A stretch of 64,000 nt of DNA from Prochlorococcus sp. AG-409-L14 (GTDB lineage: Bacteria; Cyanobacteriota; Cyanobacteriia; PCC-6307; Cyanobiaceae). Shown here in pieces: positions 32,303 through 38,796 of this stretch; the stretch's first letter is position 1; every line of letters starts with the position of its first letter. The stretch covers positions 124,001 to 188,000 of the forward strand of contig QCKF01000001.1 in assembly GCA_003215545.1 (NCBI GenBank), given 5' to 3'. Below the pieces are notes generated by a model. That model saw nothing but the letters and a program-made list of their open reading frames with translations. It was not told the DNA's origin and ran no database searches. The position numbers and the translations under genes are program-made.

Positions 32303-32754
32303 GGCATAAATAATGCGAAGGAACGTTTTTAAGAAAGAATTCTGATCCTCTTGTCGTAGTTAGAACCTTCTATTAAAAAATACTCTGCTCATAAGCAATC
32401 TTGCAAAAAAAACTAAAAAGCTAGGGAACTTAAGAGTCAATCTGAACAATAAATGAGTGTTCAATTCTCTGAAAAGACATACTCGGGCGATACCTGGGAA
32501 AGTCACATATGAAATAACGTAACTTGCCATTGACAATTTCCACTTTTTAATCATTGGCAATAAAAGAAGGGTGTTGTGCTGCTGGATAGAACATTTGTTA
32601 CTTGCATCAGTAGTAACTGGCTCTCGGACTTATCATTTATATAGTTGGCCTTTAACTAGGTCCGCATAAGACCAATGTCAGCAATGGGCTAGTCCCAATG
32701 TAGGCATGGCTCAGGAGACCGATCAACCTACCAAAGTTGGCTTTATTCCTGAAA

Positions 32755-32828
32755 ACTTCCATACCTTCGGGTATGGCACATGGGTGGAAAACCACCTCGA
32801 TCCCTCCGATCCCTCGAGGAACCTCTCG
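32755..32828 (+). ncRNA. psaA leader RNA (cis-regulatory, psaA-motif-like hairpin array)
   Basis: ccatacc-TTCG-ggtatgg (32759-32776); gggtgg-aaaa-ccacct (32782-32797); cctcga..tcgagg (32795-32819) adjacent to the psaA start. Confidence 0.7.
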
Positions 32829-35087
32829 ATGACCATTAGCCCACCAGAGCGTGGAAGGAAAGATCAGGCCGTATTTGATCAGCCTGTTGACAGAGACAAC
32901 TCTCCTGTCGACTATGAAAAGCTCGGCAAGCCTGGTCATTTCTCTAGCAAACTTTCCAAAGGTCCAAAAACTACAACTTGGATTTGGAATCTCCACGCTG
33001 ATGCTCACGACTTCGATACGCATTTAGGTGATCTCGAAGAGACAAGCCGAAAGATCTTCTCGGCCCACTTCGGACACCTTGCGATCGTCTTTATCTGGCT
33101 CAGCGGCGCCTTCTTCCACGGAGCCCGATTCTCTAACTATTCCGGCTGGCTAGCAGATCCAACGCACGTGAAACCAAGTGCTCAGGTTCTTTGGCCAATA
33201 GTTGGTCAAGAAGTTATGAACGGCGATGTGGGGGCTGGCTTCCATGGCCTTCAAATCACTTCAGGCATTTTCCAAATGTGGAGATCCTGGGGCATAACTA
33301 ATGAGGCACAACTAATGGCTTTGGCCATTGGTGCTGTTGTAATGGCAGCCCTCATGCTCCATGGAGGCATTTACCACTATCACAAAACGGCTCCGAAGCT
33401 CGAATGGTTCCAGAAAATTGAGCCAATGCTTCAGCACCATCAGATTGTTCTGATTGGTTTAGGTTCTATTGCCTGGGCAGGCCACCTTATACACATAGGT
33501 GCTCCAACAGCTGCATTATTAGATGCAATTGATGCCGGCAAGCCTCTCGTTATTGATGGGGTAACCATTGCTAGCGCTGCAGATGTTCCAACCACAACAC
33601 TTTGTAGTCCTGCTGTTGCGAGCCAGATCTTCCCAAGTCTGGATGGTCGAACAGTTGAAAACTTCTTTACTCTTAACTGGTGGGCATTCAGCGATATCCT
33701 CACCAATAAAGGGGGCCTAAATCCTGTAACAGGAAGCCTTTGGATGACAGACATCTCCCACCACCATCTGGCTTGGGGAGTTTTCGCCATCTTTGGTGGT
33801 CACATGTGGGGCAACGCCGTCCATGGGGTTGGCCACAAAATGAAGGACATTATGGATAACCACAAAGGTGATCCACTCCTTTTCCCTGCACCAAAAGGAC
33901 ATGAAGGAATCTTTGAATTCCTTAGCAATAGCTGGCATGCCCAACTAGCAATCAACCTTGCAATGGTTGGATCAGGGAGCATTGTTGTTGCGCACCACCA
34001 ATATGCGCTACCTGCTTATCCATATATTTCCCTTGATCATCCAACTGTTTTAGGACTATTCACTCACCACATGTGGATAGGCGGATTAATGATTTGTGGT
34101 GCTGCTGCTCATGCAGGCATCGCAATGATCCGTGATTACGATCCAGCAATTCATATTGACAACGTTTTAGATCGCATCCTTAAAGCTAGAGATGCAATCA
34201 TTAGCCACCTCAACTGGGTTTGCATGTGGCTTGGCTTCCATAGCTTTGGTCTTTACATCCATAACGATGTAATGCGAGCACTTGGACGCCCACAAGATAT
34301 GTTCAGTGATACAGGAATTCAACTGCAGCCATTTTTAGCTCAGTGGGTTCAAAATCTCTGGAATGGATCCGTAGGATCTGCAGAACTTGTTGGTGCGGGA
34401 AACCTGCCAGGTGCAGTTAGTGATGCTTTCTCAATTCCACTTGGTACAGCTGACTTGATGATTCATCATGTTCATGCTTTTACCATCCACGTCACTTTGC
34501 TGATCCTTCTAAAAGGTGTTCTATATGCAAGAAGTTCTCGACTAATTCCAGACAAAGCCAATCTAGGGTTCCGTTTCTCTTGCGACGGGCCTGGACGTGG
34601 AGGTACATGCCAAGTTTCTTCTTGGGACCATGTATTCCTAGGTCTTTTCTGGATGTACAACGGTATCTCAGTTGTCATTTTCTACTTCTCTTGGAAGATG
34701 CAAAGTGATGTTTGGGGTTTAACCGGTGGCAACTTTGCTCAAAGCTCAATCACAATTAATGGTTGGCTACGTGACTTCTTATGGGCACAATCATCACAGG
34801 TTTTAACTGGCTACGGTAATTCCAATGCTGGTTATAGCTTGTTGTTCTTAGGTGCTCACTTCATATGGGCATTCAGCCTAATGTTCCTGTTCACTGGCCG
34901 TGGCTACTGGCAGGAGTTATTTGAGTCCATACTATGGGCCCATAACAAGCTGAAGCTTGCTCCAACCATCCAGCCTCGGGCTCTTTCTATAACCCAAGGC
35001 CGTGCAGTGGGTGTAACCCACTTCCTCCTAGGCGGAATAGTAACCACCTGGGCTTTCTTCCACGCCCGCCTTATTGGGCTCGGCTGA
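32829..35087 (+). CDS. psaA: Photosystem I P700 apoprotein A1
   Basis: [13 protein letters not shown] start; [17 protein letters not shown] Fe-S FX loop. Confidence 0.97.
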
Positions 35088-35109: not shown

Positions 35110-37338
35110 ATGGCAACGAAATTTCCTTCGTTTAGTCAGGGTCTGGCACAGGACCCTACAACCCGTCGTATTTGGTACGGCATTGCCACGGCTCACGATT
35201 TTGAGAGCCATGACGGAATGACAGAAGAGCTTCTTTATCAGAAGCTCTTCTCCACTCACTTTGGCCATCTAGCAATCATTGGCCTTTGGGTTGCAGGCAA
35301 CCTGTTCCATATCGCCTGGCAGGGCAACTTCGAGCAGTGGGTCACCGACCCTCTTCATGTTCGCCCTATAGCTCACGCAATCTGGGATCCTCACTTTGGT
35401 CAAGGCATCACAGATGCAATGACTCAAGCGGGTGCTAATGGCCCAGTAAACATTGCCTATTCCGGTCTTTACCACTGGTGGTACACAATCGGAATGAGAA
35501 CCAATGTTCAGCTATATCAAGGTGCAATTTTTATAAACATCCTTGTTTGCTGGCTACTTTTTGCAGGCTGGTTACATTTACAGCCTAAATTCCGTCCTTC
35601 CTTAGCTTGGTTTAAAAACGCTGAAGCACAACTGAACCACCACTTAGCTGTGTTGTTCGGTTTCAGCAGTATTGCTTGGACAGGTCACCTTGTTCACGTA
35701 GCGATTCCTGAATCTCGTGGTCAACATGTTGGCTGGGACAACTGGTTAACTGTTCTTCCCCATCCAGATGGTCTCGTACCATTTTTCACTGGCAACTGGG
35801 GTGCATATGCACAGAATCCAGATTCGTTAGATGCTGTTTTTGGAACATCCCAAGGTGCAGGAACAGCCATTTTCACCTTCATGGGTGGATTACAACCAGA
35901 TAGCGGCGCTCTTTGGCTAACAGATATTGCCCATCACCACGTGGCAATTGGTGTGATGTTCATAGTTGCTGGTCATATGTACCGCAACACATTTGGAATA
36001 GGTCACACACTTAAGGAAATCACAGAAGCGCACAACACATCTCATCCCAACGATCCTCATAAAGGCCATTTCGGCATCAATCACAATGGGATCTATGAGA
36101 CTGTAAATAACTCGCTGCATTTCCAACTTGGCCTAGCCTTAGCCTCTCTTGGAACAGCAGCAAGCTTGGTAGCCCATCACATGGGAGCTCTACCTTCCTA
36201 TGCATATATTGCACAGGACTACACAACCCAAGCCGCTCTATATACACACCATCAATACATAGCAATCCTATTGATGTGTGGAGCTTTCTCACATGGCGCT
36301 ATTTTCTTTATTAGGGATTACGATCCTGAGCTAAATAAAGACAATGTATTAGCAAGAGTTTTAGGCACCAAAGAAGCTCTTATAAGTCATCTGAGCTGGG
36401 TTTGCATGCTTCTTGGATTCCATACCCTTGGACTTTATGTACACAATGATGTATGCGTTGCCTTTGGTACTCCAGAGAAGCAGATTCTAATTGAACCTGT
36501 ATTTGCTCAGTTTATCCAAGCAGCAAGTGGAAAGGTGATGTATGGGTTTGATGCACTGTTGGCCAATACCTCTAGTGCTGCAACCTTGGCTTCTGCTCAG
36601 GTCCCCGGTAATCACTACTGGATGGATATGATCAATCGTCAAGATGCTCTTACTAATTTTGTCCCAATTGGTCCAGCTGACTTCTTGGTTCATCACGGTA
36701 TTGCACTTGGTATCCATACAACTGCCCTAATACTTATTAAGGGTGCTTTAGATGCAAGGGGTTCAAAACTTATTCCTGATAAAAAGGACTTTGGCTACTC
36801 CTTCCCTTGTGATGGGCCAGGACGTGGAGGTACATGTGATGTATCTGCATGGGATGCCACATACATGGCACTTTTCTGGGCAGTAAACACTATTGCTTGG
36901 GTTCAGTTCTACTGGCACTGGAAACACCTTGCCATTTGGCAAGGCAACCTTGCTCAATTTAATGAATCAGGTACTTACTTGATGGGATGGTTCAGAGATT
37001 ATCTCTGGCTTAATAGCGCACAGCTTATTAATGGCTACAACCCATTTGGAGTAAATGCTCTTTCTGTTTGGGCTTGGATGTTCCTCTTTGGACATCTGAT
37101 CTGGGCGACAGGATTTATGTTCCTAATCTCCTGGAGAGGGTACTGGCAAGAACTTATAGAAACTTTAGTTTGGGCACATCAACGCACACCTATTGCGAAC
37201 CTTATTGGATGGAGAGATAAGCCAGTGGCTCTTTCCATTGTTCAAGCTCGTTTAGTAGGTGTTGCTCACTTTGTGATTGGAACAGCTGTAACTTATGCAG
37301 CCTTTGTAATAGGATCTACTGCCGGCAAGTTCGGATAA
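35110..37338 (+). CDS. psaB: Photosystem I P700 apoprotein A2
   Basis: [51 protein letters not shown]. Confidence 0.98.
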
Positions 37339-37383: not shown

Positions 37384-37416
37384 AAGCCGTCAGTGACTAA
37401 CACTGACGGCTTTTTT
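37384..37416 (+). terminator. Rho-independent terminator after psaAB
   Basis: aagccgtcagtg-actaa-cactgacggctt followed by tttt. Confidence 0.92.
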
Positions 37417-37584: not shown

Positions 37585-37752
37585 CTATTTAACTTCTGCC
37601 GAAAGAATTTTAAGAATCCGGTTCCATGTTGTGGGCCATTTCCACCTAAATAAGACTGCAAGTATTATAAGTAAAGAAATACCCTCTATCGGATGATTAA
37701 TATTTGACAAGCTAGGCAAAATTTGTTCTGAAGGAGCTAAGGTTGAGTACAT
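37585..37752 (-). CDS. Uncharacterised 55-aa single-TM microprotein (below ORF-track cutoff)
   Basis: MYSTLAPSEQILPSLSNINHPIEGISLLIILAVLFRWKWPTTWNRILKILSAEVK*; lies between psaB and psaL terminators. Confidence 0.5.
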   Translation of the reverse strand: MYSTLAPSEQILPSLSNINHPIEGISLLIILAVLFRWKWPTTWNRILKILSAEVK

Positions 37753-37857
37753 AATTGATTTCAAATTAAAAAGAGCAATGCATATTTTCCTTACCTAACT
37801 AGATAGTGACAAGAAACAGATCCGAAGGCCATATTAGATTAATTATTTAGTTGCAAA

Positions 37858-37890
37858 AAAACTGGGGCATATAAATGCCCCAGTTTTTTT
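37858..37890. terminator. Bidirectional terminator-like hairpin after psaL
   Basis: aaaactggggcat-ataa-atgccccagtttt flanked by A and T tracts. Confidence 0.9.
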
Positions 37891-37932: not shown

Positions 37933-38496
37933 TCAGCCTCCAACCCAAATACCTTTAATCAAAGGCATAATTGTATCTAAATGCAGTGTTCCGCAAAGTA
38001 ACCAAGCGAAAACGCATCCACCACATCCTCCTAGCCAGAATCCACTAGTAAAGTCAGCCCAACCAATTTTGGTAAACAAATCAGCAGGTGGATTATTGAT
38101 TGTGCAATCTGCTGGTTGAACATTAGGCCCTTGACCTGGAGAGTTATATAGGACCAATAAAGCAGTAAGAATATGCACAGCTCCTATAGAGCCAAGCAAT
38201 CCCGCAGTCAAAGCAAAGTCCGTATTCCTCAATGGGCCAGTCATGGTGTATGGCCCATACAAAAGGTACCCAAAGGCAGCACCTACTTCTAGACCTCGGA
38301 AGTTTGGAGACAAACCTTCGCGATAAAAAGGAAGGTTGTTCAAGAATGCCTTGGTGAAATAACCACTGTTCACAGGTGTAGATAGATTTCCTACACAAGG
38401 ATCAGAAACTGGCGTGACGGCCCATTCACTTTGAATTTCTGATCGATACGAATCGTCTAGTTTTTTGGGCCCAAGGAAAAGGTTCTCTTCAGTCAT
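37933..38496 (-). CDS. psaL: Photosystem I reaction center subunit XI
   Basis: [57 protein letters not shown]. Confidence 0.97.
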
Positions 38497-38539: not shown

Positions 38540-38656
38540 TTAATCTGTTGATGTGATGTATCGACCCACTAGGACGATGAATACAGCTGGGGCCATAATC
38601 CCAATGAGTGGCACAAATACTGCTGGCAACCAAGTTGCGGCAAATTCACTAGTCAT
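38540..38656 (-). CDS. psaI: Photosystem I reaction center subunit VIII
   Basis: 38-aa MTSEFAATWLPAVFVPLIGIMAPAVFIVLVGRYITSTD*; upstream of psaL, missed by ORF track. Confidence 0.92.
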   Translation of the reverse strand: MTSEFAATWLPAVFVPLIGIMAPAVFIVLVGRYITSTD

Positions 38657-38796
38657 GGCACATGCCAATAGTTCCATCGCTACTCTAGAGAGTGCATTCG
38701 TCCTCTTCCCACTTAAAGCCCTCTGGTGACATAAAAGTTCAATCCAATACGTCGGATTGCATCATCTATCAACCTGCATCAATCAACTCATTCCTT

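Follow-up and report, generated by a model that had tools for sequence, protein, structure and literature searches.

Squeezed between psaB and psaL in this Prochlorococcus genome is a short open reading frame (ORF) that carries no annotation, and its position among photosystem I genes raises the question of whether it is a gene at all and, if so, which membrane complex its product would serve. The features that bear on this question lie as follows within the window, the 64-kb stretch of DNA that was analysed.

32706-35087, plus strand: psaA.
35110..37338, plus strand: the converging neighbour, an ORF conserved in relatives and taken from general knowledge to be psaB.
37384..37412, either strand: terminator hairpin between the ORF and psaB (fold about -21 kcal/mol, z -7.3 to -7.6).
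37585..37752, minus strand: the ORF, a gene of set A (defined below) for a 55-aa single-helix protein, based on translation, same-place homologues, coding pattern and helices.
37753..37854, minus strand: gap of roughly 100 nt from the psaL terminator to the ORF start codon, where an own promoter is expected.
37855..37890, minus strand: terminator hairpin with a U-tract directly after psaL (RNA fold -23.4 kcal/mol, z -7.1).
37933..38496, minus strand: the upstream neighbour psaL (photosystem I subunit XI), an ORF matched to PsaL chains by phmmer (E 3e-50).
38540..38677, minus strand: an ORF upstream of psaL, presumably psaI on general knowledge, the psaI-psaL order being conserved in relatives.

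The ORF is located downstream of psaI-psaL on the same strand and is convergent with psaAB; the initial annotation had placed it between psaAB and psaL-psaI without giving a strand, and had described two strong flanking terminators, both of which indeed fold as hairpins. The hairpin at 37384-37412 has T-rich flanks on both sides, and a perfect-stem scan detected a hairpin at the position of the psaL-side one in about half of the relatives. Because hairpin terminators stand on both sides, the ORF is probably its own transcription unit, as had been proposed, with a promoter in the gap at 37753-37854; a conserved -10 or other promoter box was sought in this gap and none was recognised, nor was a Shine-Dalgarno sequence before the ORF. 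Minus-strand translation from 37752 to 37585 gives MYSTLAPSEQILPSLSNINHPIEGISLLIILAVLFRWKWPTTWNRILKILSAEVK, 55 aa, exactly as first reported. A TTG four codons upstream of the ATG would extend the product to 59 aa; the 55-aa start is favoured because the ATG lies exactly 19 codons before the conserved His20 in 18 of the 27 psaL-linked homologues.

Several lines of comparative evidence bear on whether the frame is coding. Searches of whole genomes with tblastn recovered homologues with intact frames in relatives (E down to 8e-16), and in 27 Prochlorococcus genomes (G080 and G206 included), which span 19 genus-level groups, the homologue keeps the same place and orientation, after psaL, usually 150-200 nt from its stop codon, and converging on psaB. 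A 36-codon core could be aligned without gap or stop in 27/27 of these relatives, while the other five frames over the core are each interrupted by a stop in 26 or 27 of the 27. Mismatch rates in the core at codon positions 1, 2 and 3 are 0.32, 0.18 and 0.55, pN is below pS in 351/351 pairs (Nei-Gojobori), and dN/dS (omega) has a median of about 0.20 over the 168 pairs for which dS is finite, a value that is only rough because dS is large. Taken together, the open, gap-free cores, the codon-position pattern and the excess of pS over pN point, beyond reasonable doubt, to a protein-coding gene under purifying selection. The initial annotation had proposed a tBLASTn and dN/dS comparison and had named loss of the frame in close relatives, together with lack of a transcript, as grounds for abandoning the gene; the comparison yielded same-place homologues under constraint, and the frame is kept throughout. 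That this previously unannotated ORF is a real, translated gene can hence be regarded as virtually certain.

The gene belongs to an uncatalogued family of small membrane proteins, of which a psaL-linked subfamily occurs in many low-light genomes. A family profile found members in 46/400 genomes sampled from the taxonomic family (26/59 genera), and a phylum-wide draw of 292 genomes returned only six with a match, all six inside the same taxonomic family. Comparison of an alignment of close members with genome contigs led to named records, namely Prochlorococcus single-cell genomes and MIT 0701; a single-sequence scan of genome contigs gave no match, and a bridge query with the divergent member of G014, run in search of a wider family, returned the same Prochlorococcus genes only. 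Weak tblastn matches outside Prochlorococcus (L017, L018 and L024 were inspected) were rejected, their frames being unlike the family. Set A is defined by an HP[IL]EG plus RWxWPxxWN core, a start 19 codons before the His and a location between psaL and psaB, all of which are found in the window ORF; set B comprises paralogues in varied contexts whose N-terminus is shorter, the start codon mostly preceding the His by 9 or 12 codons. The source genome carries one copy of each (G000 C1 and C4). In a tree of 62 sequences, built on 45 columns only, the 27 psaL-linked members form one side of a branch with support 97/90. The set B paralogue of the source genome (G000:C4:10226-10378; L031, L050) reads MNEFLGIIQHPIEGCAYLIYIGLFLRWRHPKSWNKLLDGL... 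and lies about 1.6 kb from acsF; in several genomes of genus g11 (L130, L133, L138, L139, L147) a set B gene is preceded, at a short distance on the same strand, by a pstS-like gene for a phosphate-binding protein; and a third, highly diverged member (L151:1994-2170, G014:C5), MKMELPADAPSQVLYILRGCKPFIEALGYLFAIAIIARWRFPES..., has neither the HPxEG motif nor the WN pair.

Databases offered no identity for the family. Pfam and NCBIfam gave no match above cut-off, PHROGs gave none that convinced, phage records and IMG/VR gave none, and a profile search of PDB chains (177,635 distinct sequences) found nothing up to E 10, in keeping with the early remark that the protein matches no recognised photosystem I subunit; Rfam gave nothing in the 64-kb window besides tRNAs, and no antitoxin RNA. 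Matches to Pfam Imm17 (0.008) and Wza_C (0.025) and to PHROGs were rejected as sub-cut-off and scattered among members. In the titles, abstracts and passages of the openly licensed literature that were available, neither a description of the gene nor proteomics or a structure of low-light Prochlorococcus photosystem I was found.

The predicted structure agrees with the single membrane helix and basic/aromatic stretch first described. The AlphaFold model (mean pLDDT 74; 84-89 for residues 21-50) places a membrane helix at 21-38, a break, and then a basic, tryptophan-rich amphipathic helix at 40-50. His20, Glu23, Gly24, Arg36, Pro40, Trp43 and Asn44 are invariant in the alignments, where they flank a single helix, and Pro21, Tyr27, Leu28, Trp37 and Leu47 are nearly so (the window copy has Leu at position 27); in L048, a set A member outside the aligned rows, Gln replaces Glu23. 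These residues underlie the two motifs of the family, HPxEG and RWxWPxxWN. By the positive-inside rule, the Arg, Lys and Trp residues after the membrane helix would put the C-terminus on the cytoplasmic side. Since Glu23 and Arg36 stand too far apart on the helix to form a pair, their conservation suggests contacts with partners or pigments.

The genomic distribution follows the chlorophyll-binding Pcb antenna in part. A Pcb search of 64 genomes gave a strong match in all 28 that carry the family, and the family occurs in 0/26 Pcb-less genomes; the remaining 10 have Pcb and no family member that could be found, including the pcb-rich complete genomes G003 (the LLVIII strain MIT1223), G078 and G100, and strict coupling of the family to pcb number was rejected on account of such pcb-rich genomes. 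Two of these ten, the small genomes G017 and G117, are taken to be high-light strains, and G003, G078 and G100 are among the other eight; five (G015, G016, G064, G077, G082) are incomplete assemblies, so that absence weighs less there. No member was found in the high-light genomes tested. Set B alone is present in G093 and G010, presumably MIT9313 (LLIV) and SS120, and G100, which lacks the family, is presumed to be MIT9211. All three cultured LLVII strains, MIT1300xe (G080), MIT1307xe (G074) and MIT1341xe (G031), carry set A; among the groups with a major pcb expansion, LLVII is the most basal one (PMC11559063). An origin of the family close to the base of Pcb-bearing Prochlorococcus, followed by losses, fits this distribution; the restriction to Pcb-bearing genomes is nevertheless confounded by common descent.

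Genomes devoid of set A qualify the meaning of the psaL-psaB location. In G010, G061, G100, G017 and G016, psaL and psaAB are separated beyond the stretch read, and in G029, G093, G003, G027 and G078 they are adjacent with the gene missing; the conserved adjacency is thus partly retained gene order. In SS120-like, MIT9211-like and high-light genomes (L183, L184, L185, L187) psaL lies away from psaAB and is followed by alanine racemase or other genes, which indicates lineage rearrangement. Two genomes have, at the usual place of the ORF, a second, incomplete psaL 3' end (L104:2042-2254 in MIT1223; L108:2079-2276 in G027), which covers the third membrane helix, is nearly identical to the psaL of the same locus and has no obvious ATG; it is perhaps a duplication scar. 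These repeats prompted the idea that the ORF derives from the end of psaL, which was rejected as the sequences are dissimilar by eye. In G078, psaB is directly followed by a diverged fragment that resembles the psaB 3' end at 46-63% identity (L109:975-1206).

As to function, the most likely single reading, and one to be held tentatively, is that the protein assists a pigment-protein complex, as an accessory subunit or in its assembly. It would sit in the membrane, probably the thylakoid, with its short N-terminus in the lumen, helix 21-38 across the bilayer and helix 40-50 on the cytoplasmic face, and might pack against such a complex, photosystem I or its Pcb antenna being the first candidates; His20 and Glu23 could contact pigment or partner at one side, and Arg36, Trp37, Pro40, Trp43 and Asn44 could form a contact surface at the other. 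The psaL-psaB place in 27 genomes, the well-supported branch, the co-occurrence with Pcb, set A in LLVII and the seven invariant residues make this role plausible at the level of sequence. Against it, set B paralogues occupy variable places away from psa genes, pcb-rich genomes exist without the family, known photosystem structures hold no similar chain, and photosystem I is directly indicated only by the neighbouring genes, whose order may be just inherited. Of the initial annotation, then, the real small gene, the likely own unit, the membrane helix and the basic/aromatic tail stand, whereas the role of a photosystem or thylakoid accessory subunit is no more than plausible. A more specific version, in which a photosystem I subunit or linker invented by Prochlorococcus helps the expanded Pcb antenna of the low-light LLVII grade to dock on photosystem I, having been gained with pcb multiplication and lost in later lineages, is rather unlikely.

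Almost as likely as a role at a pigment-protein complex is that the protein is an accessory subunit or regulator of some other membrane complex (NDH-1, cytochrome b6f, photosystem II, a transporter or a protease) and merely inherited its place beside psaL. The varied contexts of set B, such as the vicinity of acsF or the position behind a pstS-like gene, would suit this explanation, and gene order around psaL is so widely kept that adjacency to it carries little information; all set A genes found nonetheless lie in the psaL-psaB spacer, none was found elsewhere in genomes where psaL and psaAB are separated, and the solved chains without similarity include the small subunits of NDH-1 and b6f. 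A membrane-acting toxin that belongs to a type I toxin-antitoxin system and is kept silent by antisense RNA would account for a short, hydrophobic protein with a basic/aromatic tail, its own transcription unit and scattered paralogues, yet this is highly improbable given the fixed position and invariant residues across deep divergence, the lack of any Rfam match in the window besides tRNAs and of any match in phages and viral contigs. A chance, untranslated frame, which the short length and the lack of a Shine-Dalgarno sequence or recognisable conserved promoter might suggest, has a negligible probability in the face of the coding evidence above.

The product is therefore a concrete candidate to seek in photosystem I-Pcb preparations, being conserved, uncatalogued and encoded beside psaL in cultured low-light strains; even if its partner is another complex, it represents a family missed by Pfam, NCBIfam and PHROGs. 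Among known systems, the single-helix HLIP and chlorophyll a/b-binding proteins are likewise cyanobacterial and about 50 aa long, but the present family has HPxEG and RWxWPxxWN rather than the ExxN/HxR signature, is absent from the tested high-light genomes, and showed no Pfam match to the chlorophyll-binding family PF00504 in any of 25 members. The small photosystem I subunits PsaI, PsaJ, PsaM and PsaX resemble the protein in size and single membrane helix, and the ORF adjoins psaI-psaL-psaB; unlike them, it is restricted to Prochlorococcus and is only a candidate for photosystem I membership, and no sequence similarity to the solved chains of PsaI, PsaJ, PsaK, PsaM or PsaX appears up to E 10. 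NdhP-like NDH-1 subunits likewise differ in sequence from the protein as far as solved chains go, and its phylogenetic range is narrow; nevertheless NdhP, a 5 kDa small NDH-1 subunit (PMC4131877), exemplifies the tiny single-helix type that stabilises a large thylakoid complex, and it is this type that the protein resembles.
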